Positions 44,593-58,261 of a stretch of 64,000 bases of DNA are shown here, piece by piece. Origin of the DNA: an uncultured Victivallaceae bacterium (GTDB taxonomy: Bacteria > Verrucomicrobiota > Lentisphaeria > Victivallales > Victivallaceae); contig CALXXL010000001.1 of assembly GCA_944392655.1 (NCBI GenBank), positions 1 through 64,000 of the forward strand, given 5' to 3'. Positions within the stretch are counted from its first letter, which is position 1; every line of letters begins with the position of its first letter. Both the position numbers and the translations under genes were made by a program. Below the pieces are notes generated by a model that had not been told where the DNA came from, searched no databases, and worked only from the letters and a program-made list of their open reading frames with translations.

Positions 44593-45474
44593 TTACGCCA
44601 AATAAAAGTTACCGAGTATATTTTGATAACGTTTCAGCTCATTGTCATCTGCAACAGGAAATGGCGGCTGTGGCGAATGGCAGAGACGAATCAGTTTATC
44701 CTGTCCGAATGGATGATACGGTTCCGGGTGAATTCCTGTAACATTACATAATTTCCCGGCAAGTTCGACCAATTGCAGTATATCATGATCGTCGTCATTC
44801 ACTCCATGGATCAATGGAGTCCGCAGCTCTATAACAGCTCCAGTCTCATTTAATTTATGGAGATTTTCAAGTATTATTGAGTTATCCACTCCGGTAAATG
44901 CCAGGTGTTTATCCGGAGCAATACATTTTACATCATACAGCCACAAGTCGACAAGTGGGAGAATTTGCCTGATAATATCCCAATTGGCATAGCCGCAGGT
45001 TTCCACTGCCGTATGCCAGTTTTTCTCTTTTGCAAGTTTCAGAAGGGCAATAGAGAATTTCGGTTGAAATAAAGGCTCTCCTCCGGATAGGGTTATGCCG
45101 CCGCCGTTATTATAGTATGCTGAATCTTTTTCTAATGTGTCAATAACATTTTCCGCCGTCACTGTTTGACCGGAAACAGTTAATGCCTTAGTTGGGCAAA
45201 CTTTGGCACATTGTCCGCATCCTTTACAAGGGTTCGGAGTAAACTGATGGATGCGAGAAGCGAGTGTATGACAACCGCACGCACAGTATTTCTCGCATAA
45301 ACCGCAATTAAGACACTTTTCTTTAAAAAACATGATTTCCGGTTTAATTGAGTGTGACTCCGGATTATGACACCATTGGCAGCGCAATGGGCATCCTTTG
45401 AAAAAGACAACGCTTCTGATGCCTGGCCCATCGGTAAGTGCAAACCTGGCAATATCAAATATCACGCCTGTCAT
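44593..45474 (-). CDS. Glycyl-radical enzyme activating enzyme (radical SAM)
   Basis: A 293-aa PFL-activase-type protein that makes the glycyl radical on its partner enzyme using S-adenosylmethionine. The radical SAM cluster motif is in FFKGCPLRCQWCHNPES (C-x3-C-x2-C). Two further [4Fe-4S] ferredoxin-like motifs follow (CLNCGLCEKYC and CKGCGQCAKVC), as in the activases of glycerol dehydratase-type enzymes, and then GGITLSGGEPLFQP. It starts 1 nt after the partner gene's stop, so the two are co-translated. Confidence 0.95.
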   Translation of the reverse strand: MTGVIFDIARFALTDGPGIRSVVFFKGCPLRCQWCHNPESHSIKPEIMFFKEKCLNCGLCEKYCACGCHTLASRIHQFTPNPCKGCGQCAKVCPTKALTVSGQTVTAENVIDTLEKDSAYYNNGGGITLSGGEPLFQPKFSIALLKLAKEKNWHTAVETCGYANWDIIRQILPLVDLWLYDVKCIAPDKHLAFTGVDNSIILENLHKLNETGAVIELRTPLIHGVNDDDHDILQLVELAGKLCNVTGIHPEPYHPFGQDKLIRLCHSPQPPFPVADDNELKRYQNILGNFYLA

Positions 45475-45475
45475 A

Positions 45476-47626
45476 TCATGCTTCGAGTTCAGTACGGTTG
45501 ATTATCATATCCTGCCACTCTTTGGACAAAGATGCAAATCGTGCCGACCAACCGGATATCCGTACTACCAGATTGGGGAAGCGATCCGGATCTTTTTGGG
45601 CTTCCCTGAGAGTCGCCGCATCGACAGTATCCAGCTGCAGATAGAACCCGCCCTGTTCAAGGAATGCTTTGAACAAAGTAACCAGAATATCCGGCGCGTT
45701 CGGCAGCTTTCGCATTCCGGCGGATAGGCGCAAATCAAGCGGGCATCCATTCGGCGTACCGGAGAAATCCATTTTGCAATATGAATTCAGCACTGCGGTC
45801 AGTGCATTTTTTTCTGTTCCAGGCGTGGGGCTCATGTTCGGAGCCAGATATTCTCCGGCATATTTTCCGAATGCGGTGGCTTTTCTATATGGAGCAAATT
45901 CAATTTCACGTCCGAAGGTACTGATCCCGGCAGGAGTCAGCACTCCGGGAATCGGTTCGGAGGCGGCGACAATTTCAGCGTAATCATCAAAAGCCGTTTT
46001 AGTCATGGCATCAGCTTCATCGTCGTCGTTGCCGTAATACAGAATAGAATTGGCGAATTCCTGTCGTAACAGTTCATTGCCGTTCCAGTTGTCTTTCAGG
46101 ATTTTTACCAACTCGGAAAGGGGGAGTCTATGTTCTTCAAAAATCTTCTTTTTTATTGCTAAAAGGCTGTTTGCCACATCAGGCAACCCTCCGGCGTGAA
46201 GTGCATTTATAGTATATGATGTGCCTAAATTATAATATGGCCGACCGCTCTGGCGGCATGATGGCATAACTAAAGAGAGTACAGCCTCCGGAGCCGGATC
46301 GAAATGCTTAAAAACTTTCTTACCGGTTACCGGGTCGGTTGATTCGGCATAATGGCGGTTAAAAACTGTTTGCCGCCAATCTTTTACATATTGCCGGAGG
46401 CATTCCAGATAACGCTGATACAATTCGTCAAAACTTTCCGGGATATTGGGTGAGAACAGAGCATGTTGGAATACTTGCAAAAGATCGAACGGGGTATAGG
46501 AAAAAGCGGTTTTTCCCGGGAAAATCACTTCCCAGCAGCCGTCATTGGTAAAGTTTACGATTTCCTTTTCCGGGAATCCCATTTGGCGCAGACCATTCAT
46601 GACAACATCTTCATTATATATGGAGACAATACCGCCGCCAAGAAGTTGTACATCGGCAATGCGCCGCAAGAGTTTCTGTGAGGTTTGACGATTAATCCGT
46701 ACGGCAACCGGATAATCACTTATATGTAATTCTTCAATTACGTCAAGAACAAGATAAGTTGCGGCATTTTCAATATTTAGTCCGTTTTCGTCTATTCCGC
46801 TGAGGATAATATTCTGATAGTGCTGGGCATCTCCGGAGCCTGGTTCGCCGGGGTTGTACTTGCGTAGTCCGTAACACCATTCTGTGCCTTTTATCCAGAA
46901 GTGTGCAATCAACTCCCTGGCTTCGTCCAGCTGAATTTTTCCTGTTTGCAAATCATTTTCCAGATATGGGCCGAGAATCTGGTCAAATCGTCCGAGTCCA
47001 CTCCAATTGCCACATAATCTTTGAAATTCAAAAAAGAGCCAGAACGACTGTAATGCTTCGCGAAAATCGGATGGTGGATTTTCCGGTACATTTTGTAATG
47101 TTTTCAGGATTGACTTAATATTTTCAGGGTTTGGCGAGTCTGAATGCCGGCGGCACAAATCCACATATCGTGCAACCCATATCCGCATTGCGGTAATTAC
47201 CTGTAATAAAGCGTTCCGGAAGTTCGCCTCTTCCTGGGTTTCATTGGAGTAATTATGTAATTCGCGTTCAAGTCCGGAGAGCCCTTTGCGGATTGCATCG
47301 CCGAAATCCGCGGTGGTGTGGCTGATGGAGTAACGTCCTTTCATGCCTGGAACCTGATGCATCATTGCCGGGATAAGCGGAGCCGATCCTGCTATTTTCT
47401 CCTCTGGGCGGAAAATAAGCGGAGATTTTTGGGCGATCAATATCGCCATCATGGCATGGCGTTCAATGGGCGAAATATTGTCTGGTAGATCAAGGTCATC
47501 AATAGAAAAATCCGGCATTTGCAGTTCCTTACGGAATTGCCCGCTTAAGTATTGGGTTGCCAATGTTCTGGTTTTATCAGACAACCGGTTAACATTTTTT
47601 CTTTCCAAAGGATTTAATTCGATCAT
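45476..47626 (-). CDS. Glycyl radical enzyme of unassigned substrate
   Basis: A 716-aa oxygen-sensitive enzyme of the pyruvate formate-lyase superfamily. The radical-bearing Gly692 lies in VVRISGWSARFASLS, and the active-site Cys364 in FTNDGCWEVIFPGKTAF. Cys-x-Glu (C364, E366) resembles the GCVE of eliminases such as diol dehydratases, but NDGCWE differs from the well-known subgroups, and the protein is shorter than most of them (about 780-840 aa). No microcompartment, kinase or transport gene is adjacent, so the substrate cannot be guessed. It forms an operon with its activase and is divergent from the first AIDA-repeat gene. Confidence 0.9.
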   Translation of the reverse strand: MIELNPLERKNVNRLSDKTRTLATQYLSGQFRKELQMPDFSIDDLDLPDNISPIERHAMMAILIAQKSPLIFRPEEKIAGSAPLIPAMMHQVPGMKGRYSISHTTADFGDAIRKGLSGLERELHNYSNETQEEANFRNALLQVITAMRIWVARYVDLCRRHSDSPNPENIKSILKTLQNVPENPPSDFREALQSFWLFFEFQRLCGNWSGLGRFDQILGPYLENDLQTGKIQLDEARELIAHFWIKGTEWCYGLRKYNPGEPGSGDAQHYQNIILSGIDENGLNIENAATYLVLDVIEELHISDYPVAVRINRQTSQKLLRRIADVQLLGGGIVSIYNEDVVMNGLRQMGFPEKEIVNFTNDGCWEVIFPGKTAFSYTPFDLLQVFQHALFSPNIPESFDELYQRYLECLRQYVKDWRQTVFNRHYAESTDPVTGKKVFKHFDPAPEAVLSLVMPSCRQSGRPYYNLGTSYTINALHAGGLPDVANSLLAIKKKIFEEHRLPLSELVKILKDNWNGNELLRQEFANSILYYGNDDDEADAMTKTAFDDYAEIVAASEPIPGVLTPAGISTFGREIEFAPYRKATAFGKYAGEYLAPNMSPTPGTEKNALTAVLNSYCKMDFSGTPNGCPLDLRLSAGMRKLPNAPDILVTLFKAFLEQGGFYLQLDTVDAATLREAQKDPDRFPNLVVRISGWSARFASLSKEWQDMIINRTELEA

Positions 47627-47816: not shown

Positions 47817-47890
47817 CACTAATGTGAAATTTATTTTATATTTTCGAGGATCATTTGTATAAGACCTTTTTTATTGAAAGGATTGGAGAG

Positions 47891-50800
47891 ATGACAATTT
47901 ACAGCGGAACAGTCGTAAGCGGAGCATTGGAACTTTCATCTGGCGATATCGGATTAAATATTTTTGTCGATGGTGGCGGAAAATTAATTCTGTCAAGCGG
48001 AGGGATGGCAAACGATGTTGTCATTGAAGGACTGGTTATAGTTCAGCGTGGCGGAGTGGTGGAAAACGTTGAAGCCGTAGGACCTTTTTATCCATATTGT
48101 GACGGAGGTATAAATATTTATTCCGGTGGCAGCGGCAGGAATATAACCATACATTCCGGCTATGCCATCAATGGATTTCGATTATTGGAAGAAACACATT
48201 TTGATAATGTTGAAAATGGGGTAGTTCATATTTCCGGAGCGCTTGTAGAAGATTACTGTTTCGCGGACGCATTTATTTCCAGTGGCAGTACCGCGCGCGA
48301 TGTTACTGTTAGCGGTGAGGTTAAATTACATATATATGATGGTGGCAGTGCGGCGGAGGTAGACGTTAACACATGGGGGCGCGTATATGTGTCAAGCGGT
48401 GGTTTTCTGTCGGATTCAGTTGTGTCTGGTAATGCTCGGTTATTCGCCGACGAAGGAAGTGTTTTAAACAATATTTTGATTAAATCCGGAGGCTCTCTTA
48501 ATGGTTTTGTCATGAAAAATGACAGCTCATTTTCTGCCATTTATGATGGTGAGTTCAATACTTCCGGCACTATATTGGAAAATTACACGGTATTAATTGA
48601 TCAAGGCAAGGAAATTAATGATGTTGATGTTGGCTACAGTGGTCAGCTGAATATCGGAGACGGAGGGAAGGCTAATAATATTCTTGCGAGCGTGGGTGGT
48701 CGAGTGATTCTCACCAGTGGTGCAGAGGTGAATAATGTCATTAATAAAACTGGCTATATAATAGTTTATGATGGCGCGAAAATAAATACTATTACTAGTG
48801 AGAATAGTGAAATAATAATTTCTGGCAGTGCGGAGATAAATAATTTTACTAATAATAACGGCAAAATAATAGTTTCTGGTGGTGCGATTGTTAATGGATT
48901 CTCTCAGAGTGCAGGGAGCGCAACCTTTATGGCCGGTGCCAGGATAAACAGTGCGTATATATTGGGCTTCGGAACCGTTTATGACGATGTAGTGCTTAAT
49001 GATGTGAGAACTGGCGCTTATCTTAAGGTTTCAGGAGGTGTTCTGAATAATGTGCAGAATCTCCGCTCTCTTGGTTTGTACAGCGGTTCGGAAGTTAATA
49101 ATCTTTTAATCGGAGATTATATTACAAATAGCTACGCATCTACATATTTATACGAAGGAGCTGTTGCCAGTAATGTTGAAATTAGCAGCCATTCCAAGTT
49201 GTATATTTCTGGAGGGATAGCTTATGATGTGCAGGCTGGCGGGGTTTTTAGTGAAATTAGAGTATCCAGTGGCGGGAGGCTTGAGCGGGCAGCCATCTCG
49301 AACAATGCATTTGTGTATAGTTACGATGGAAGCACTATTTCCAATCTTACTGTCTATTATGGAGGATTTGCCGAAATTTGCAAAGGGGAAGATATCCGGG
49401 TTGAGAAGGGCGGACTGGTATATGTTGATGCGGGCGCCGTTGGGCTTAAAGATATAACTCTTGCCGGTGGGAAAATGCAACTATCAGGAGATGATTCAAA
49501 GCAGGCTTATATTGATGAGATTACTTTTGAATTGTCAGGAAGATTGGCTGATCCACTGATAGATGCAGATATATCCAGGATTACCTGTTCGCAATATTAT
49601 CTTTCGGTGGCGGAAGATAACAACTCGCAGGAATATATTCTTTGCAGCAACAGCAATGGTTTCTCCCAGAGCATCACTGTGACCAACAGCATGGGTGATG
49701 AGCTTGGGGTATTAACGGCAGGCGAAACGCTTGTCGGGGATCGTGGTAAATACAGTCTCAGTGAAGAAAACGGTCAGCTGTTGTTGAACTACACCGCTTT
49801 TGTGGTGAATGAAAATATCAGCGGATTGACTGTGACGATAAAATCAGCGGAAGAGCTTGCAGCAGGTGATAGCTTGACTTTAACTTCGGTAAATTATACC
49901 ATAAGCGACAGCCAGATCGGCGTATTTTCCGCAACGAACGGCGTATTGAATGGCGGAGCCGCGAATGTCGCCGGTACAGTCGCAGTAACCGTGACTTCCA
50001 CCTCCGGGGATGGAATTGGAGCGATCTACGGCGGCGGACTTGGTTTGAACCAGAGCATTGGTGAAGATGTATTGCTGACGCTTGAAGGCGGGACCTATGG
50101 CTATATCTATACAGGAGGTTACTCAGCGGTATCCGGCAACGTAAAAACCGTCATCGGCGATGTTACGGTAAATAATAACATCTATGGCGGCACGGCTTAT
50201 ACTAATCCGGACAGCTTCATAAATAACGTTGGCGGTTCGACAACTGTTGAAATCTCTTCCGGCGTGATCTTGAACCAGGTCTATGCGGGTAACTATGTCA
50301 ATTGCGACAACTCCGGCGGTGAAGTAAAGAGTACGGTATCCGGCGGGAGTTATCTGAATATTTCCGGCGGAACATTCACCGGTCCGGTAGTTATGGCCGG
50401 TGGTGTAGGCGTGGCAACCGGATCCGGCAGTAATTATGTAATCTCCGAAGTAAACGGAGGTACGCATATAAATGTGACCGGCGGGGAGATTTCCTATCTC
50501 TATGGCGGCGGCCGCGGCGGCGCCTCGACGGTGAATGCTGATTACGGTGCCAGTGTGGTAAATGACGGTTCGCATATCACGATATCCGGTGGCGATATAA
50601 AAGTGGTTTATGGCGGTGGCTATTGTGATGCCGGTTACAGTTATGTCAACGGCGGAGCGTCGATAACGTTGAATGCCGGCACGATCGGGACGGTCTTCGG
50701 CGGCGGCAGTGGAACCGGCGGAGCTGCTCGAAACAGTATTGTAGACAATGTGAACATCACTGTGGATGCGACAGGCGACCTGTCGATTGCCGACATCTAT

Positions 50801-51472
50801 GGAGGCGGTAACGGGCGCGCGCAGGTAAGTGGGGATGTAACGATAACGCTTCATGGTGCGAACGGCCATAATCTGTCGATAAATGGCTTAATCTCCGGCG
50901 GCGGTCGCAATGGCGTCAGTGGAGTTGGTGGAGATCGTACCCTGCAATTTGAAGATTATCAAGGCTCGCTTGATGCGACGATTGCCAACTTCACCACTAT
51001 TCGAGTGAATGAGTACACAGAAGTTGCGTTAAGCAAGGTACAAGATTTCAGCACCGTAGATACGTTTATCTTTGATGCCCCGATGCAGGCGTACGATGCA
51101 ACGGCCGGAATGCTTTTAAGCGGCGATACCGTATGGGGAGGCTCGAAGCTGTTGAAGTTGAATGTGGATTCCGGTGTCTACGATGCCGAGATCGTGTTGC
51201 TCAGCAATCTTGGTAATGATATCTCGAGTTTTGCGGATGCGAATTACGAATTCAACGTATTGGGAACGCTTGAAGATGGCTATTCGTCTGGCGTAATGAG
51301 TGGAATAGATCTTGAAAGCGGTCTTGGTTCTGCGTGGTATAACGAGATAGATGAAGCCTATTATCGTCTTGAAATCGGAGAATTTGATACTTTGGCCGGG
51401 TTAGATCTCCGGTTGAAAGTGATAGATGCTTATAGTGACGAAGGCTTGCAGCTTAAGGCGCAGTTGGCATAA
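47891..51472 (+). CDS. Large AIDA-repeat beta-helix protein, cassette 1
   Basis: A 1193-aa repeat protein. The N-terminal 560 residues are made of AIDA-type repeats (units such as SGGSGRNITIHSG and GGSAAEVDVNTWGRVYVSSGG), predicted to stack as a beta-helix. A slower repeat marked by INGF or LNGF is laid over them. From about residue 558 begins a 636-residue constant domain, nearly identical to that of the protein in cassette 2, with glycine-rich motifs (IYGGGLGLNQS, YLYGGGRGGAS). No signal peptide, no LPxTG and no C-terminal outer-membrane barrel ending in Phe is seen, so the export route is unclear. Met47891 is chosen because the paralogue starts with the same MTIYSGTVV; an in-frame upstream start at 47855 is less likely. 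The peptide gene follows after 91 nt. Confidence 0.85.
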   Translation: MTIYSGTVVSGALELSSGDIGLNIFVDGGGKLILSSGGMANDVVIEGLVIVQRGGVVENVEAVGPFYPYCDGGINIYSGGSGRNITIHSGYAINGFRLLEETHFDNVENGVVHISGALVEDYCFADAFISSGSTARDVTVSGEVKLHIYDGGSAAEVDVNTWGRVYVSSGGFLSDSVVSGNARLFADEGSVLNNILIKSGGSLNGFVMKNDSSFSAIYDGEFNTSGTILENYTVLIDQGKEINDVDVGYSGQLNIGDGGKANNILASVGGRVILTSGAEVNNVINKTGYIIVYDGAKINTITSENSEIIISGSAEINNFTNNNGKIIVSGGAIVNGFSQSAGSATFMAGARINSAYILGFGTVYDDVVLNDVRTGAYLKVSGGVLNNVQNLRSLGLYSGSEVNNLLIGDYITNSYASTYLYEGAVASNVEISSHSKLYISGGIAYDVQAGGVFSEIRVSSGGRLERAAISNNAFVYSYDGSTISNLTVYYGGFAEICKGEDIRVEKGGLVYVDAGAVGLKDITLAGGKMQLSGDDSKQAYIDEITFELSGRLADPLIDADISRITCSQYYLSVAEDNNSQEYILCSNSNGFSQSITVTNSMGDELGVLTAGETLVGDRGKYSLSEENGQLLLNYTAFVVNENISGLTVTIKSAEELAAGDSLTLTSVNYTISDSQIGVFSATNGVLNGGAANVAGTVAVTVTSTSGDGIGAIYGGGLGLNQSIGEDVLLTLEGGTYGYIYTGGYSAVSGNVKTVIGDVTVNNNIYGGTAYTNPDSFINNVGGSTTVEISSGVILNQVYAGNYVNCDNSGGEVKSTVSGGSYLNISGGTFTGPVVMAGGVGVATGSGSNYVISEVNGGTHINVTGGEISYLYGGGRGGASTVNADYGASVVNDGSHITISGGDIKVVYGGGYCDAGYSYVNGGASITLNAGTIGTVFGGGSGTGGAARNSIVDNVNITVDATGDLSIADIYGGGNGRAQVSGDVTITLHGANGHNLSINGLISGGGRNGVSGVGGDRTLQFEDYQGSLDATIANFTTIRVNEYTEVALSKVQDFSTVDTFIFDAPMQAYDATAGMLLSGDTVWGGSKLLKLNVDSGVYDAEIVLLSNLGNDISSFADANYEFNVLGTLEDGYSSGVMSGIDLESGLGSAWYNEIDEAYYRLEIGEFDTLAGLDLRLKVIDAYSDEGLQLKAQLA

Positions 51473-51507
51473 AGATTAAAAAGGAGTTATATTAAAGGAC
51501 TAACTTT

Positions 51508-51535
51508 TCCGGCAGGGGGAATCACCTCTGCCGGA
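51508..51535 (+). promoter_or_regulatory. Intercistronic hairpin between AIDA protein and peptide gene, cassette 1
   Basis: TCCGGCAG (51508-51515) pairs with CTGCCGGA (51528-51535); three inner pairs extend the stem to about 11 bp with a 6-nt loop. No T run follows, so it is not a normal terminator. It could stabilise the upstream mRNA, slow polymerase or set the ratio of the two products. Cassette 2 has a hairpin at the same place with another sequence. Confidence 0.5.
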
Positions 51536-51563: not shown

Positions 51564-51683
51564 ATGATAGATTACAAGAAGCCGGAATTGAAAGGCTTTA
51601 ACGGTTGGGGAGAATTTGTAGAAGGCAGTACAGGAACGCCGCCGCCATTCAACTGCCAGAATGCGCCTTTGGATGAAGACTGA
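51564..51683 (+). CDS. 39-aa putative RiPP precursor peptide, cassette 1
   Basis: A 39-residue peptide with a good ribosome site (AAGGGA, 6 nt upstream of ATG). The N-terminal half MIDYKKPELKGFNGWGEF holds Y4-x2-P7-x-L9, the motif by which RiPP recognition domains bind many leader peptides. The second half is rich in small, acidic and proline residues: GSTGTPPPFNCQNAPLDED, with one Cys (31), three consecutive Pro (26-28) and Trp15. The gene lies between the AIDA-repeat gene and a radical SAM/SPASM gene whose start overlaps its last codons. The peptide is repeated with a single change (Asn30 to Asp) in cassette 2. Leader/core division and modified residues are unknown. Confidence 0.72.
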   Translation: MIDYKKPELKGFNGWGEFVEGSTGTPPPFNCQNAPLDED

Positions 51684-52692
51684 CAACTTACATGCAATTC
51701 TCTCCGCTCCGGAGTTATTGCGGATACATCTTACCGGAAGATGTAATCTCAACTGTCGGTATTGTTATGTAGATAAAAGCGTACAGGATTTGCCGTTGTC
51801 GGCATGGCTGAGATTATTGACGGATGCCCGTGCAATGCGGGTTTTCCGCCTTTCGCTTTCCGGAGGAGAAGTATTATGCTGCAATTACTGGCGGGATTTC
51901 ATATCAGAGGCGGTTGCCTCTTCGATGAGGTTTTCTCTGGCGACCAACGGAGTTTTATTGGATGCAGCTGCCGTGAATTTTATTTCTGAAACCAAACGTT
52001 GTGATCGTGTAATAATTTCGCTGGACGGAACGCGTGAGATGCATGACTCTATGCGTGGTTCGGGTACATTTGATGCTGCCTGGCGCGCAATTGAACGTTG
52101 CCGAGAGGCAGGAATTAAAGTAGTTCCCAAATTAACGATTGGGAAACACAATTTTAATTTTTTAGAGGAGATTTTTGATTTCTTTTTTCATCAGAATTCT
52201 CTGCCGCCAATAACCATCAATATCGGTTGGAAAATTAATTCACGTTGTGATGGGACATTGCCGTTAGATGATATTGTAATTGTGCGCAATAAGATTGAGT
52301 CTCTGGCGGAAAAATATTCCGGAAATATGTTGAAAGAGGGAGCGTTGAAAAGTTTTCTGCACTGGCGTGACGTGGAATCTGGAATAATTGATGGAGGTAG
52401 AGATTACGCTTGTGGAGGTGTTTTTACCCGTTTAACTATAATGGAAAACGGAGATATAAAACCTTGTACGCAACATAATGAAGTGCTGGGTAATATTACC
52501 AGGGATGCTCTGCAAAAGGTTTGGCTTGAAGCTCCGGCTCTTAATGCAATGCGAAACAATTTCGGCTCTTCATTGGTGCGGTATGCCAGCTGCAAACACT
52601 GTCGTTATATAAATCGCTGTACCGGAACATGTCCGCTTACTCCAGAGTTTTGTGCCGGTAAGTTTGCTGAAAAGGCAAGTCATATTCATTAA
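51661..52692 (+). CDS. Radical SAM/SPASM peptide maturase
   Basis: A 343-aa enzyme (339 aa if the in-frame ATG at 51673 is used; both ATGs also exist in the truncated copy). Cys28, Cys32 and Cys35 form the C-x3-C-x2-C radical SAM site in LTGRCNLNCRYCYVDK; LSLSGGE at 64-70 contacts S-adenosylmethionine. The C-terminus has the full seven-Cys SPASM pattern: Cys251, Gly264-x4-Cys269, Cys311-x2-Cys314-x5-Cys320-x3-Cys324-x6-Cys331, which binds auxiliary iron-sulfur clusters. This build is shared by RiPP maturases (PqqE, sactionine and thioether enzymes) and anaerobic sulfatase maturases. No sulfatase lies nearby and the overlapping partner is a tiny peptide, so the peptide is the probable substrate. 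No N-terminal RRE domain is present. Confidence 0.9.
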   Translation: MRLWMKTDNLHAILSAPELLRIHLTGRCNLNCRYCYVDKSVQDLPLSAWLRLLTDARAMRVFRLSLSGGEVLCCNYWRDFISEAVASSMRFSLATNGVLLDAAAVNFISETKRCDRVIISLDGTREMHDSMRGSGTFDAAWRAIERCREAGIKVVPKLTIGKHNFNFLEEIFDFFFHQNSLPPITINIGWKINSRCDGTLPLDDIVIVRNKIESLAEKYSGNMLKEGALKSFLHWRDVESGIIDGGRDYACGGVFTRLTIMENGDIKPCTQHNEVLGNITRDALQKVWLEAPALNAMRNNFGSSLVRYASCKHCRYINRCTGTCPLTPEFCAGKFAEKASHIH

Positions 52693-52791
52693 AATTAAGC
52701 TATCATATTATTAAGATATTATTTGATAATTGTTATTAAAAAAATAGAATATTTCTGTTTTTAGATTGATTTGTTGTATTGTATGATAAGA

Positions 52792-52857
52792 TTTTACTTA
52801 AAAAAAACTTCATTTTTTATTTTGTCTATTGACATTAAATGAAAAATACATTATAAC
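52792..52857 (+). promoter_or_regulatory. Promoter and upstream box of cassette 2
   Basis: TTGACA (52829-52834) and TATAAC (52852-52857) with a 17-bp spacer. The box TTTTACTTAAAAAA at 52792-52805 sits 32 bp ahead of the -35 (same alignment as cassette 1, one base shorter). TATGATAAGAT directly precedes the box (52782-52792). The promoter gives the second AIDA gene its own transcript; about 70 nt separate -10 and ATG. Confidence 0.7.
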
Positions 52858-52924
52858 AAATAATGAAAGATTATTTTTTCTTTAATAGCAGGCTATAAAA
52901 ATCTTTTACAGGGGAAGTGAGAAA

Positions 52925-55900
52925 ATGACGATTTACAGTGGTACGGTTGTTGATGGCGAATTCGGACTTTTATCTGGCGATAGCGGTATTGACATGCTTG
53001 TTCAGTCTGGTGGGCGTTTAATATTGTCAAGCGGGGCGCTTGCAGAGTCGACTACAGTATCAGGAAACGGCTCAGTAATTGCCTCATCAGGAGCAAAAGT
53101 TGTTGGCACCGTTGTCTCTTCCGGTGAGTTGCACATTAATGGGGAGGCCGCAGACACAACAATTGGTTCAGAAGGTTTCTTGTATGTGAATGGTTCCGGA
53201 ACAACTACAAATACCGAGCTATACGGCGATATGAGAGTTTCCCAGAGTGCGACCATGTATAATACAAATATAAGATATGATGGAATTCTTAAAACTTTCG
53301 ATGCAACGGTTACAGCTAGCAGCACAGTTGTTTTCAAGGGAGGAGAGCTTCACGCATTTGGTGGTGGATTGTTCTTTGACACCACGGTAAGTGGAGGTAG
53401 TGCGCATATCGCAAATGGCACAGTGGCCAGCAATAATAATATAATAAGTGGAGCACTGATCGTTAATACCTCCGGGATGGCAATTGGAAATACAGTGGAA
53501 CTTGGAACCATGTATGTTTCTGCCACCGGCAGTGCAGTTGACACGACGGTTAATTCCGGAGGCGGTATATATGCATATGGGACGTTAAGCGATTTAACTG
53601 TGGTCAGTGGGGCTGAGTTGAATGGTTTTGTTTTACAGGAAGAGCTGTATTTTTCATCCGTTGAAAATGGCGTATTTGAATTTGCCAATGTATTAGTATC
53701 GGATAGCAAAGCATTTATAAACAGCGGCTGTACTGTAAGTGACATATACATTCTTTCTAACGGCGGAGTGCAGGTTTTGGATGGTGGCACTGCAAGTGCT
53801 ATGATAATATCTTCCGGCGGGTATTGCAGCAATTATGATGGCGGGATAATTAATGAAATAACGGTATCGTCAGGTGGGAGTATCTATGTTTCAAGTCAAG
53901 GGGGGCTTTATGATTTAACCATACATGCCGGAGGTTCTATCAATGGTTTTATTTTGTCTTCCGATAATTACTTTGCGACCGTTGTTAATGGAGTTTTAAA
54001 TCTGTCGGATGTTGAATTAAGAAAATATGGAATGGTTGTATTGTCAAGTGGCAGTACGATAAACAATATCTCAATTATTGGCAATGGCATAATAGATATT
54101 CTTGCCGGTGCAACCGTGACCGATATTGATGTAGGCTGGGGAACGATTGTTATTGAGCAAGATAGTGTAGTTGATGGCGTATATGTTGCAATGGATGGTG
54201 AGATTAATATCAATGATGGTGGTATTGCAACAGATGTAACTATTGCTTCAGGTGGTATTATAAACGGATTTGTTTTGGAAAAAGAAATGTATTCTTCATC
54301 GTTAAGGTTCGGAGAAATTCATATTTCCGGGGCATATACCTACGGAGAAGTGATGCTTGCCGGCGGTAATACGGCAGAAGATATATCATTAATAGAGAGT
54401 CGTGCTCTACTCGATGTTGTCAGCGGCGGCTCTGCCGCCGGAGTACAGGTGGACAGTTACGCCAGGCTTAATGTTTATCAGGGCGGTAATGTGTCAGATG
54501 TGACGATGGGATTCGGCAGTTATATAAATGGATTCTTTTTATTCGAACAAACTTATTTTGAGTCGATAAATGATGGAGTGGTTCATCTCTCTTCCGTTGC
54601 TGCTGGCAGTAACGCATTTGTCGGCAACGGCAGTACGGTTAAGGATTTTGATGTCGGTATAAATGTCAGTGTATATAATGGAGGTGTTGCTGACAGTGGT
54701 TATATTATGGATTCAGCCACTGCGTGTGTTTACAGTGGTGGAATTATGAATAATACCACTGTCGCCTCAGGCGGTAGTCTTTTAGTGTATAATGGCGCAG
54801 ATTTAAATAATACATGGATTGCGGCAGGAGGCTCTCTGAATGGCTTTATTATGGAAGAAGACAGTACTTTTTCCGTTCTCGGAAAGGGCAAAGTTTATAT
54901 TTCCGGCGCTCTTGTGCAAGATTCCGCATTTGTTGATGAAGGAGTAATAGTCAGCGATATTATTGTTAGTAACAGTATTTTGGATAGTAGTGCTGTATTG
55001 AATATTAATTATAATGGAGAGGCCAATGACGTTACTCTTCTGGAGGGTGGCGAGGTTTTAATTAACAGTGGCGCAACGGTTAATGTCCTTGCCAACTCTG
55101 GAGGTATATTAACCATCTCCAGTGGAGGGGTTTTAAATAATTATATCCATAGCGGCTATTCTGACAAGATCGTTGTCGAGTCTGGTGCCAAGATTAACGG
55201 GTTATCCACAGAAAGATTTGGATGGCTGGAGATTTCCGGTGGTGGTGAGGTAAATGATGCTCAAATAAATACTGGTATCATTTCTATTTACGGCGGCGTA
55301 ATTAATGGCTTTGATAATGATGGTTCTATCTGGTTGTATAGCGGGGCGGTTATAAAAGATGGAATCATGAGAAGCAGCATGAATATGCAGCAGGGAACGA
55401 GTGCCAGTAATATTAATATTACAAAAGGAGGAAACGTCAACGTTTATGATGGAGCAATCATACAAGACGTTGTTCTTAGTGGCGTAATGACCATTTGGGA
55501 GGGAGGATCCGGGGCACAAATAATTTTGAAGGACAATGCATTTTTGAGTGTCAGCAATGATGCTTATATTTCAAATCTCATTGTAGAGTCCGGCGGTTTT
55601 GCTCACGTTTGCCAGGGAGAAGACATACTGATTAAAGACGGTGGTATGCTTTCCGTTGGCGGGACAGAGGAAGGGATAAAAGATATAACTCTTGCCGGCG
55701 GTAGTATGGAGTTGTTTGCTATGAATCCGTTGCCGATCCGTTGCGATAGTATTACTTTCGAGTTGTCCGGCGAAATGCCCAACGCCATGATAAATGCAGA
55801 TATATCAAAGGTTACCTGTTCGCAATATTATCTTTCGGTGGCGGAAGGCAACAGCTCACAGGAATACATCCTCTGTAGCAACAGTAATGGATTCTCTCAA

Positions 55901-57703
55901 AGCATTACGGTGATCAACAGCTCCGGCGATGAGCTTGGCGCGTTGAAGGTTGGTGAAACGCTTTCTACGAATTATGGAGAATACAGTCTTACAGAGGCTG
56001 ACGGAAAATTATTATTGAGTTATAATGCCACTGTGATAAATGAAGCTGTTTCCGGACTGACCGCGACGATAAAATCAGCGGAAGAGCTTGCAGCAGGTGA
56101 TAGCTTGACTTTAACTTCGGTAAATTATACTGTAAGCGACAGCCAGATCGGCGTATTTTCCGCAACGAACGGCGTGTTGAATGGCGGAGCTATGAATGTT
56201 ACTGGTAATGTCAAGGTGACGGTTACCTCCACCTCCGGGGATGTAATCGGAGCGATCTACGGGGGCGGACTTGGTTTGAACCAGAGCATTGGAGAAGATG
56301 TATTGCTGACGCTTGAAGGCGGAACCTATGGCTATATCTATACAGGCGGTTATTCAGCGGTATCCGGCAACATAAAAACCGTTATTGGCGATGTTACTGT
56401 AAATAAGAACATCTATGGCGGAACAGCTTATACTAATCCGGACAGCGTCATGAATAACGTTGGCGGTTCGACAACTGTTGAAGTCTCCTCCGGCGTGATC
56501 TTGAACCAGGTCTATGCCGGTAACTATGTCAATTGCGACAACTTCGGCGGTGAAGTAAAGAGTACGGTATCCGGCGGAAGTTATCTGAATATTTCCGGCG
56601 GAACATTCACCGGTCCGGTAGTTATGGCCGGTGGAGTTGGAGTTGCCACTGGTTCCGGTAGCAGTTATGTCATCTCCGAAGTAAATGGAGGTACACATGT
56701 AAACGTTACCGGTGGAGAGATCGCCTATCTCTATGGCGGGGGGCGCGGCGGCGCCTCGACGGTGAATGCAGATTACGGAGCGAGTGTGGTAAATGACGGT
56801 TCGCATATCACGATCTCCGGCGGCGATATAAAAGTAGTCTACGGTGGAGGCTATTGTGATGCCGGTTACAGTTATGTCAACGGCGGAGCGTCGATAACGT
56901 TGACTGCCGGCACGATCGGGACGGTCTTCGGCGGTGGCAGTGGAACCGGCGGAGCTGCTCGAAACAGCATTGTAGACAATGTAAACATCACTGTGGATGC
57001 GACAGGCGACCTGTCGATTGCCGACATCTATGGAGGCGGCAACGGCCGTGCGCAGGTAAGCGGCGATGTAACGATAACGCTTCATGGCTCGAACGGCCAT
57101 AATCTGTCGATTAATGGTTTAATCTCTGGTGGAGGGCGCAATGGCGTCAGTGGCGTTGGCGGAGATCGCACCCTGCAAATTGAAGATTATCAAGGCTCGC
57201 TTGATGCGACCATAGTCAACTTCAATACAATCCGTATCAATGAATATACAGAGGTTGCGTTAAGCAAGGTACAAGATTTCAGCACCGTAGATACGTTTAT
57301 CTTTGATGCCCCGATGCAGGCGTACGATGCAACGGCCGGAATGCTTTTAAGCGGCGATACCGTATGGGGAGGCTCGAAGCTGTTGAAGTTGAATGTGGAT
57401 TCCGGTGTCTACGATGCCGAGATCGTGTTGCTCAGCAATCTTGGTAATGATATCTCGAGTTTTGCGGATGCGAATTACGAATTCAACGTATTGGGAACGC
57501 TTGAAGATGGCTATTCGTCTGGCGTAATGAGTGGAATAGATCTTGAAAGCGGCCTTGGTTCTGCGTGGTATAACGAGATAGATGAAGCCTACTATCGTCT
57601 TGAAATTGGTGAATTTGACACCTTGGCCGGTTTAGATCTCCGGTTGAAAGTGATAGATGCTTATAGTGATGAAGGTTTGCAGCTTAAGGCGCAACTGGCA
57701 TAA
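52925..57703 (+). CDS. Large AIDA-repeat beta-helix protein, cassette 2
   Basis: A 1592-aa paralogue of the cassette 1 protein, about 400 residues longer in its N-terminal repeat region. It begins with the same MTIYSGTVV and a first repeat SGGRLILSSGA, then many AIDA units (for example SGGYCSNYDGGIINEITVSS). The (I/L)NGF marker recurs at nucleotide positions near 53619, 53942, 54263, 54527 and 54839, each followed by a Phe/Tyr-rich turn and an NGV-type strand, giving a super-repeat of roughly 90-110 residues. From about residue 957 the 636-residue constant domain is almost identical to cassette 1. No signal peptide or barrel is seen. Probably a surface or shell protein; the export route is unknown. 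Confidence 0.85.
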   Translation: MTIYSGTVVDGEFGLLSGDSGIDMLVQSGGRLILSSGALAESTTVSGNGSVIASSGAKVVGTVVSSGELHINGEAADTTIGSEGFLYVNGSGTTTNTELYGDMRVSQSATMYNTNIRYDGILKTFDATVTASSTVVFKGGELHAFGGGLFFDTTVSGGSAHIANGTVASNNNIISGALIVNTSGMAIGNTVELGTMYVSATGSAVDTTVNSGGGIYAYGTLSDLTVVSGAELNGFVLQEELYFSSVENGVFEFANVLVSDSKAFINSGCTVSDIYILSNGGVQVLDGGTASAMIISSGGYCSNYDGGIINEITVSSGGSIYVSSQGGLYDLTIHAGGSINGFILSSDNYFATVVNGVLNLSDVELRKYGMVVLSSGSTINNISIIGNGIIDILAGATVTDIDVGWGTIVIEQDSVVDGVYVAMDGEININDGGIATDVTIASGGIINGFVLEKEMYSSSLRFGEIHISGAYTYGEVMLAGGNTAEDISLIESRALLDVVSGGSAAGVQVDSYARLNVYQGGNVSDVTMGFGSYINGFFLFEQTYFESINDGVVHLSSVAAGSNAFVGNGSTVKDFDVGINVSVYNGGVADSGYIMDSATACVYSGGIMNNTTVASGGSLLVYNGADLNNTWIAAGGSLNGFIMEEDSTFSVLGKGKVYISGALVQDSAFVDEGVIVSDIIVSNSILDSSAVLNINYNGEANDVTLLEGGEVLINSGATVNVLANSGGILTISSGGVLNNYIHSGYSDKIVVESGAKINGLSTERFGWLEISGGGEVNDAQINTGIISIYGGVINGFDNDGSIWLYSGAVIKDGIMRSSMNMQQGTSASNINITKGGNVNVYDGAIIQDVVLSGVMTIWEGGSGAQIILKDNAFLSVSNDAYISNLIVESGGFAHVCQGEDILIKDGGMLSVGGTEEGIKDITLAGGSMELFAMNPLPIRCDSITFELSGEMPNAMINADISKVTCSQYYLSVAEGNSSQEYILCSNSNGFSQSITVINSSGDELGALKVGETLSTNYGEYSLTEADGKLLLSYNATVINEAVSGLTATIKSAEELAAGDSLTLTSVNYTVSDSQIGVFSATNGVLNGGAMNVTGNVKVTVTSTSGDVIGAIYGGGLGLNQSIGEDVLLTLEGGTYGYIYTGGYSAVSGNIKTVIGDVTVNKNIYGGTAYTNPDSVMNNVGGSTTVEVSSGVILNQVYAGNYVNCDNFGGEVKSTVSGGSYLNISGGTFTGPVVMAGGVGVATGSGSSYVISEVNGGTHVNVTGGEIAYLYGGGRGGASTVNADYGASVVNDGSHITISGGDIKVVYGGGYCDAGYSYVNGGASITLTAGTIGTVFGGGSGTGGAARNSIVDNVNITVDATGDLSIADIYGGGNGRAQVSGDVTITLHGSNGHNLSINGLISGGGRNGVSGVGGDRTLQIEDYQGSLDATIVNFNTIRINEYTEVALSKVQDFSTVDTFIFDAPMQAYDATAGMLLSGDTVWGGSKLLKLNVDSGVYDAEIVLLSNLGNDISSFADANYEFNVLGTLEDGYSSGVMSGIDLESGLGSAWYNEIDEAYYRLEIGEFDTLAGLDLRLKVIDAYSDEGLQLKAQLA

Positions 57704-57731
57704 AGCTTAAACAAGAGTTATATTAAATAAT

Positions 57732-57754
57732 CGGTGGAGTGCAATGCTCCGCCG
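57732..57754 (+). promoter_or_regulatory. Intercistronic hairpin between AIDA protein and peptide gene, cassette 2
   Basis: CGGTGGAG (57732-57739) pairs with CTCCGCCG (57747-57754), with one G-T pair, around a 7-nt loop. Position matches the cassette 1 hairpin (about 30 nt after the AIDA stop codon and about 28 nt before the peptide ATG) although the stem sequence differs, while the flanking GAGTTATATTAAA is shared. Confidence 0.5.
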
Positions 57755-57782
57755 TTTAAAAACCTAACGAAAGGGATAAGAG

Positions 57783-57902
57783 ATGATAGATTACAAGAAG
57801 CCGGAATTGAAAGGCTTTAACGGTTGGGGAGAATTTGTGGAAGGCAGTACAGGAACCCCGCCGCCGTTTGACTGTCAGAATGCGCCGTTGGATGAAGACT
57901 GA
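57783..57902 (+). CDS. 39-aa putative RiPP precursor peptide, cassette 2
   Basis: Second copy of the peptide, identical to cassette 1 except Asp for Asn at residue 30 (PPPFDCQNAP). The ribosome site AAGGGA and start context are conserved. All remaining nucleotide differences are silent, which suggests selection on the peptide. Its own maturase gene is cut short, so it would depend on the enzyme from cassette 1 or elsewhere. Confidence 0.7.
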   Translation: MIDYKKPELKGFNGWGEFVEGSTGTPPPFDCQNAPLDED

Positions 57903-57981
57903 TACCTTAAATGCAATCCCTTCCGCCCCGGAGTTATTGCGGATACATCTTACCGGCAGATGCAATTTTTTAGTGCATTAG
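57880..57981 (+). pseudogene. Truncated radical SAM/SPASM gene
   Basis: The first 29 codons match the cassette 1 maturase (MKTD, then AIPSAPELLRIHLTGRCN) up to the first Cys of the C-x3-C-x2-C motif; then four unrelated codons (FLVH) and TAG follow. The start again overlaps the end of the peptide gene, with both candidate ATGs (57880 and 57892) conserved. It cannot make an active enzyme. Confidence 0.85.
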
Positions 57982-58000
57982 TTTTTTAATTGCGTACGCC

Positions 58001-58175: not shown

Positions 58176-58261
58176 TGGTACCCGGAGAGGGACTCGAACC
58201 CTCACGTCCTTGCGGACAACGGATTTTAAGTCCGTTGCGTCTGCCATTCCGCCACCCGGGC
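58176..58261 (-). tRNA. tRNA-Leu (anticodon TAA)
   Basis: The reverse complement gives an 86-nt class II tRNA with a long variable arm (TGTCCGCAAGGACGT). The anticodon stem ACGGA/TCCGT encloses CTTAAAA, anticodon TAA, reading TTA codons. The T-arm has GGTTCGAGTCC and the 3' CCA is encoded (58176-58178). Its 5' end lies only 5 nt after the stop codon of the M48 protease gene on the same strand, so it may be co-transcribed and processed from that mRNA. Confidence 0.95.

Follow-up and report, generated by a model that had tools for sequence, protein, structure and literature searches.

Introduction

Linear polyphosphorylated peptides (LPPs) have recently been described from Bacillota (PMC13381572). 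The precursors of the LPPs and of Bsf dock on a discrete recognition domain through a YxxP leader, and Ser3 of their core is the phosphorylation site of an HprK-like kinase (PMC13381572, PMC10368454). LppK rejects Thr at core position 3 (PMC13381572).

Further points of comparison are the SynChlorMet cassettes, represented in NCBIfam by TIGR04248-TIGR04252 (ScmA, ScmC, ScmD, ScmE, ScmF), and radical SAM/SPASM peptide maturases with solved structures. Among the latter, SuiB, SkfB and CteB are longer and have a recognition domain at the N-terminus.

Here, a stretch of 64,000 nucleotides from an uncultured bacterium of the family Victivallaceae, class Lentisphaeria, was analysed (GenBank assembly GCA_944392655.1, contig CALXXL010000001.1; hereafter, the window). 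An earlier note, made from the letters alone, had proposed that a 39-aa peptide encoded in the window is the substrate of a radical SAM/SPASM enzyme encoded by an overlapping gene. Our preferred reading, to which we assign a probability of about 0.76, is that the peptide is the precursor of a ribosomally synthesized and post-translationally modified peptide (RiPP) and that the overlapping gene encodes its dedicated maturase, with the recognition domain supplied in trans.

Results

The peptide gene and the overlapping enzyme gene

Both open reading frames of the proposed pair were confirmed (Table 1). They overlap by 23 nt if the enzyme starts at ATG 51661 (343 aa) and by 11 nt if it starts at ATG 51673 (339 aa), the latter being the predicted start that fits better with the N-termini of the relatives. 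The product of the first peptide gene is MIDYKKPELKGFNGWGEFVEGSTGTPPPFNCQNAPLDED; its ribosome site, AGAAGGG, located ~9 nt upstream, had been called strong and is graded here as moderate. The peptide has no match in Pfam or NCBIfam. G21 stands 17 residues after the Tyr of the leader motif, and if the core starts at this residue, the predicted core is GSTGTPPPF.

The complete C-x3-C-x2-C and seven-Cys SPASM motifs reported for the enzyme are all present, and the protein scores above the Pfam cut-offs for Radical_SAM and SPASM. In an alignment of six sequences, the CxxxCxxC cysteines (C28, C32, C35) and the seven SPASM cysteines (C251, C269, C311, C314, C320, C324, C331) are invariant. In NCBIfam, the enzyme is matched best by TIGR04250 (ScmE of SynChlorMet), at 194.2 bits vs a curated cut-off of 400. 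An AlphaFold model (pLDDT 75, six sequences) matches SuiB, anSME, SkfB, CteB and PqqE by fold. The closest solved structures comprise four peptide maturases and, by fold, anSME. Because the model starts at the radical SAM core, the enzyme has no N-terminal recognition domain.

Table 1. Features of the locus in the window and gene orders of related loci
Feature	Position or locus	Strand	Basis or gene order
Giant AIDA-like repeat protein 1	47891..51472	+	ORF 47855-51472; start ATG 47891 by match to copy 2
RNA hairpin, 11 bp, between giant 1 and peptide copy 1	51508..51535	+	
Precursor-like peptide gene, copy 1, 39 aa	51564..51683	+	ORF, homologues, synonymous-biased divergence from copy 2
Leader motif Y4-x2-P7-x-L9, predicted recognition-domain docking site	51573..51590	+	Y and P invariant in 15 aligned members
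G21-S22-T23, predicted core start (G1-x-T3)	51624..51632	+	G-x-[ST] common in the peptide family
ScmE-like radical SAM/SPASM maturase	51673..52692	+	TIGR04250 (2.8e-57), Pfam, alignment, fold match to SuiB
Giant AIDA-like repeat protein 2	52925..57703	+	ORF; 76% identical to giant 1, C-terminal 897 aa
RNA hairpin, 9 bp, between giant 2 and peptide copy 2	57732..57754	+	
Peptide gene, copy 2, 39 aa, N30D	57783..57902	+	
Truncated remnant of second maturase gene	57892..57981	+	Breaks after TGRCN
tRNA-Leu gene	58176-58261	-	
Related locus	L120		giant-peptide-HprK-PqqD-ABC-S26
Related locus	L068		giant-peptide-radical SAM-HprK-PqqD
Related locus	L067		giant-peptide-radical SAM-HprK
Related locus	L069		peptide-radical SAM-HprK-PqqD
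Related loci	L101, L138		giant-peptide-HprK-PqqD
Related loci	G027, G100, G127, G128		separate PqqD-S26-radical SAM-HprK locus
Loci of the window genus			peptide-radical SAM alone

A diverged tandem copy in the window

To the earlier note the analysis adds a second copy of the peptide gene with a truncated enzyme remnant, and a giant AIDA-like protein encoded before each copy. Between the two peptide genes, 6 of about 23 synonymous sites and 1 of about 94 non-synonymous sites have changed (binomial p = 3e-4); given this synonymous-biased divergence, the peptide has been kept as a protein by purifying selection. The second maturase gene is reduced to its first ~25 codons, broken off ahead of the tRNA-Leu gene; the ORF that covers the remnant (57835-57981) encodes MKTDTLNAIPSAPELLRIHLTGRCNFLVH, and DNA similarity to the first copy stops near 57966.

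Giant 1 has an NCBIfam match to the AIDA-I autotransporter (2.6e-11), ends in ...KAQLA and shows no evident signal peptide. The ends of the two giant genes (51007-51476 vs 57238-57707) are near-identical DNA with long stretches free of differences; since the spacer and the peptide gene that follow have diverged, recent gene conversion is suggested. The opposite strand encodes a glycyl-radical enzyme and its radical SAM activating enzyme immediately upstream of the gene for giant 1 (44593-47626).

A strong hairpin lies between giant and peptide in both tandem copies, in an equivalent place and with differing stem sequences, and could be an attenuator or a processing site. As a general feature of giant-peptide spacers it was dropped, most pairs having short spacers only; clear hairpins were found in the window, at two other loci of the same genome and on C4 of G024.

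A peptide family across Lentisphaeria

Searching the window's own genome (G000) with the single peptide sequence retrieved two further homologues, on contigs C2 and C6. In relatives, the single-sequence search returned only the copies of the own genome, and profiles were needed. A four-sequence profile, run over 137 genomes of the order, added a homologue on C3 of the own genome, loci in G001, G028 and G019, and weaker candidates; a second profile built from 15 sequences found members in many genomes, the best of them strong. The peptide lies directly upstream of a radical SAM gene on C6 and C3 of the own genome, at two loci of G001 and in G019. A profile built from these enzymes then revealed another four radical SAM genes that are immediately preceded by a peptide with the leader motif. 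These peptides were recognised from gene position, without the peptide profile, at three loci in G033 and at one in G130, where two peptides precede the ScmE-like enzyme. The adjacency is therefore more than chance, since the pairing of homologous peptides in front of homologous enzymes recurs at other loci and in other genomes. Conservation of the ORF at neighbouring positions in related genomes, suggested in the earlier note as a check, was found.

The 41 members collected share the consensus Y-x-[KE]-P-x-L near the start, a variable stretch, G-x-[ST] and a variable, often acidic tail; in the group of the window peptide, the variable stretch contains GW. The reading of Y4-x2-P7-x-L9 as a leader motif, made from one peptide, is borne out by the family alignment (Table 1). 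In 35 of the 41 peptides, G-x-[ST] follows the Tyr at a distance of 15-20 residues, 17 being the commonest, compared with 6.6 +/- 2.3 (maximum 16) in shuffled tails, a count that is inflated because part of the 41 were gathered with a profile already containing the Gly column; the motif is also present in five out of five position-found peptides of G033 and G130. The single Cys to which attention had been drawn is there in the window peptide; it is not a feature of the family, 15 of whose 41 members have none. Because the cores vary and these 15 lack Cys, no single cross-link would explain the whole family.

A conserved Trp was considered as a marker of a radical SAM partner and dropped: W is also found in the peptides of G024 and G028, two genomes without a strong ScmE-like match. 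At L134:287-983 and L126:425-921, two or three different YxxPxL peptides with cores of the CYIDC type are encoded in tandem; one of these arrays lies behind a giant, and for both the PqqD-S26-radical SAM-HprK locus is elsewhere in the genome.

Relationships of the enzyme

The search for related loci with the single window enzyme sequence found nothing. With the enzyme alignment, mainly generic SPASM loci and one Lentisphaeria record were retrieved, together with four loci from other phyla whose ScmE-like genes belong to SynChlorMet-type cassettes. In the enzyme tree, the ScmE proteins of SynChlorMet-type cassettes form one clade (99/98), which contains none of the enzymes from the peptide pairs. 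The longest branch of the tree (2.03) is that of the window enzyme, whose function may therefore have drifted.

ScmE proteins above the cut-off occur in the same order (e.g. L081, 562 bits), and assemblies from Anaerolineales, deltaproteobacteria, Nitrospirae and Chloroflexi also contain ScmE-clade enzymes, the assignment being based on profile score and position in the tree. ScmE-clade loci have PqqD directly upstream and ScmF downstream, several of them with HprK-like, peptidase and ABC genes and Cys/Gly-repeat precursor candidates. Candidate SynChlorMet precursors were noticed at L073:8341-8631, L081:9270-9557, L076:6226-6528, L079:1470-1769 and L142:2524-2724; they have a leader of the Y-x2-P type and repeated C...G..A units, and fall below the ScmA cut-off in a scan with the ScmA model that covered all but the Nitrospirae candidate.

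A toolkit in varying gene orders and a proposed recognition domain in trans

Related peptides are found with several combinations of genes (Table 1). In G027 and G100, peptides stand behind giants elsewhere in the genome (L126, L135), and in relatives an S24/S26-type peptidase is encoded beside PqqD. The best NCBIfam match is ScmC for the HprK proteins (L068, L120) and ScmD for PqqD (L120), in each case below the cut-off.

In the window's genome, HprK-PqqD pairs are encoded on C3 and C14, and no PqqD gene was found beside any of the peptide-radical SAM pairs. That the recognition domain neither adjoins the window pair nor forms part of the enzyme counts against the precursor-maturase reading. 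An ScmD-type PqqD (78.8 bits vs a cut-off of 100), which matches the lasso recognition protein TbiB1 in PDB (5v1u), is encoded on contig 10 and followed by an MsbA-type ABC exporter. The order of PqqD and exporter is kept in G001, a genome of the same genus, with an exporter 49% identical. ScmD-type PqqD is present in 17 of 17 genomes taken as peptide-bearing (picked from the profile matches by E-value and frame, the doubtful G134 omitted) vs 45 of 137 in the order. The hypergeometric probability is 5e-10 in the order and 4e-9 within the family, whose size was counted from the genome handles, and the test is inflated by shared ancestry.

Linkage to giant AIDA-like proteins

Across the peptide family, a giant AIDA-like protein is the neighbour found most regularly. 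The peptide is encoded directly behind a giant, on the same strand, twice in the window, on C2 of the own genome, at three loci each of G024 and G033, on C13 of G001, and in G028, G034, G027, G019, G100, G012, G003, G126 and G069. The spacers are mostly <50 nt, and the identification of giants in other genomes relied solely on length and residue composition. Of seven giants examined in the own genome, three have no peptide; peptide-radical SAM pairs with no adjoining giant were found on C6 and C3 of the own genome, on C2 and C33 of G001 and at one locus of G019.

On C14 of the own genome (L084:6975-8276), a giant is followed by a Y-x2-P-x-I ORF (MKEKYEAPEIVVMESDIKDVIAVSATHEGFEEEEYEW), missed by the peptide profile, an HprK-like gene and a lasso-type PqqD. 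This locus is a second, kinase-type version of the peptide system.

Giant AIDA-like proteins of several genera end in ...LA-COOH in 18 of 22 cases (KAQLA, KGALA, LSKLA, VAKLA) and have no obvious N-terminal signal peptide; this end is possibly an unrecognised C-terminal sorting or secretion signal. The survey covered the giants ending at 51472 and 57703 in the window and those of L032, L084, L086, L087, L028, L033, L067, L068, L119, L120, L124, L126, L132, L135-L138, L101 and L102.

Discussion

Proposed pathway and alternative readings

If the peptide is a precursor with a dedicated maturase, its residues 1-20 would be the leader, and Y4-x2-P7-x-L9 is predicted to dock on a discrete PqqD-type protein encoded elsewhere (contig 10, beside the MsbA-type exporter), which would present the peptide to the maturase. 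The radical chemistry of the maturase probably acts on the core, or on residues from W15 onward into the core. Cleavage of the leader is predicted in front of G21, and the product would be exported. The unit belongs to a Lentisphaeria family with precursors mostly encoded directly behind giants and with varying subsets of one toolkit: an ScmE-like radical SAM enzyme, an ScmC-like HprK kinase, an ScmD-like recognition domain, an S24/S26-type peptidase and an exporter. Docking, cleavage site, export and a tie to the function of the giant are inferred from the genomes, as is the identity of the substrate, for which the genomic evidence is strong. The proposal of the earlier note that the peptide is the substrate gains support from the repeated adjacency, from the conservation of the leader motif, from purifying selection, and from relatives whose operons combine this type of peptide with a RiPP recognition domain and an HprK-type kinase. 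The G21-S22-T23 of the window peptide shares its distance from the Tyr with the LPP and Bsf precursors, and G-x-[ST] of the family stands where HprK kinases phosphorylate Ser3 in those precursors (PMC13381572, PMC10368454). Counting against the precursor-maturase reading, besides the distant recognition domain, are the long branch of the window enzyme, the variable and partly Cys-free cores, and the Thr of the window peptide at core position 3.

A wider proposal, which we put forward tentatively while leaning somewhat against it, is a RiPP system dedicated to giant surface-type proteins. Each such giant would be made together with a short precursor, using a shared, partly trans-acting toolkit, and the modified peptide would serve the giant as an anchor, cap, co-secreted partner or production signal, and not as a free antibiotic-like product.

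Among the alternatives, the most serious, although in our estimate unlikely, accepts the peptide as a RiPP precursor and considers the radical SAM enzyme auxiliary: the main modification would be HprK-type phosphorylation at core position 3, as in LPP, and the radical step an add-on in some genomes. This would agree with the giant-peptide operons L120, L138 and L101, which have HprK and PqqD and no radical SAM gene, with G-x-[ST] being the best conserved feature after the leader motif, and with the HprK-PqqD pairs of the own genome. However, the own genome and its nearest relative have peptide-radical SAM pairs with no adjoining kinase, and position 3 of the window peptide is Thr, which makes its phosphorylation uncertain, given that LppK rejects this residue.

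It is improbable that the enzyme acts on the giant protein or on a sulfatase, the peptide being a regulatory or translational-coupling ORF. Overlapping genes would permit such coupling and anSME is among the fold matches, but the peptide is conserved as a protein in many loci, also where no enzyme adjoins it. The 25 best NCBIfam matches of the enzyme include no anaerobic sulfatase-maturase model, and no sulfatase-like ORF was recognised among its neighbours, which are giant proteins and the glycyl-radical enzyme pair; the sulfatase partner that the first reading of the locus had named as a possible counter-indication is thus absent from its side.

An assignment to lasso peptide precursors is far less credible still. 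The Y-x2-P-x-L motif with Gly 17 residues after the Tyr corresponds to lasso leader geometry (PMC10368454), and the PqqD of C14 in the own genome resembles a lasso PqqD. Lasso membership was nevertheless rejected, since positions 7-9 of a core beginning with G21 are PPF, without the ring-forming Asp/Glu, and the B2 protease PF13471 has a best E of 0.5 in the own genome, below the cut-off; nor does a cyclase gene adjoin the peptide. Finally, a chance ORF or decayed duplicate, as the truncated second enzyme and hence rearranged locus might suggest, is refuted by the conservation of the peptide, with synonymous-biased divergence of the copies and homologues in many genomes, and the first enzyme is intact.

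Significance

Literature searches retrieved no account of RiPP precursors associated with giant AIDA-like proteins, nor of the present system in Lentisphaeria, and SynChlorMet is not mentioned in the literature searched. The parts are of known kinds; their combination and the linkage to giants appear new to us, pointing to an undescribed branch of RiPP biology tied to giant repeat proteins. If the precursor-maturase reading is true, it would identify the precursors of a Lentisphaeria branch, so far unstudied, within the group formed by radical SAM/SPASM, SynChlorMet and LPP systems, and link RiPP chemistry to giant repeat proteins, and one recognition domain with one exporter may serve several scattered peptide-maturase pairs per genome. 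Units of the window type, with two or three genes, are small systems for testing how ScmE-type enzymes act.

Comparison with known systems

With SuiB, SkfB, CteB and PqqE, the window enzyme has the fold and the cluster-binding cysteines in common; unlike SuiB, SkfB and CteB, it starts directly at the radical SAM core. Sactipeptides and ranthipeptides have core cysteines that form thioethers; the window peptide has one Cys, and 15 of the 41 family members have none. The phosphorylated lasso peptides Bsf and paeninodin (PMC10368454) resemble the system in YxxPxL at -17 to -12, the recognition domain B1, an HprK-like kinase and an ABC exporter, whereas the window system is without a cyclase, a B2 protease and the ring-forming Asp/Glu.

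The likeness to LPP lies in relatives such as L120, with a discrete recognition domain, HprK-like kinase, MsbA-like transporter and peptidase, and in the Y-x2-P leader with Ser/Thr at predicted core position 3 of the peptide family. Of the LPP motif YxxPxVLxHQxIxFETxxS, the window peptide has YxxPxL and Thr at predicted position 3, without the HQ/FET part. In the own genome, a discrete recognition domain and an MsbA-like exporter are encoded side by side on contig 10, away from the window pair, an arrangement kept in G001; the HprK-like genes of C3 and C14 have counterparts adjacent to related peptides in other genomes. LPP systems have an SpI-type leader peptidase, and in relatives the gene beside PqqD encodes a peptidase of S24/S26 type. 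In contrast, the LPP core gene set has no radical SAM enzyme and no giant-protein linkage, and an NTP transferase was not noticed in the giant-linked operons examined.

From SynChlorMet, the window locus differs in falling below the TIGR04250 cut-off and in having, at 51564-58000, no second intact radical SAM gene corresponding to the ScmF of such cassettes (e.g. L073). No ScmD/PqqD gene adjoins the pair, the ScmD-type protein of contig 10 being below its cut-off. The window peptide was rejected as an ScmA precursor, as it has no match to TIGR04252 at E 1, and no ScmA above the cut-off was found in the own genome; moreover, it is without Cys/Gly repeats and is encoded behind a giant protein. 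Nevertheless, ScmE is the closest named family to the window enzyme, an ScmC-like kinase and an ScmD-like PqqD accompany relatives of the peptide, and SynChlorMet cassettes are present in the same order as well as in other phyla, their precursor candidates often beginning with a similar Y-x2-P leader. The best reading places the window system between the SynChlorMet cassettes and the linear polyphosphorylated peptides.
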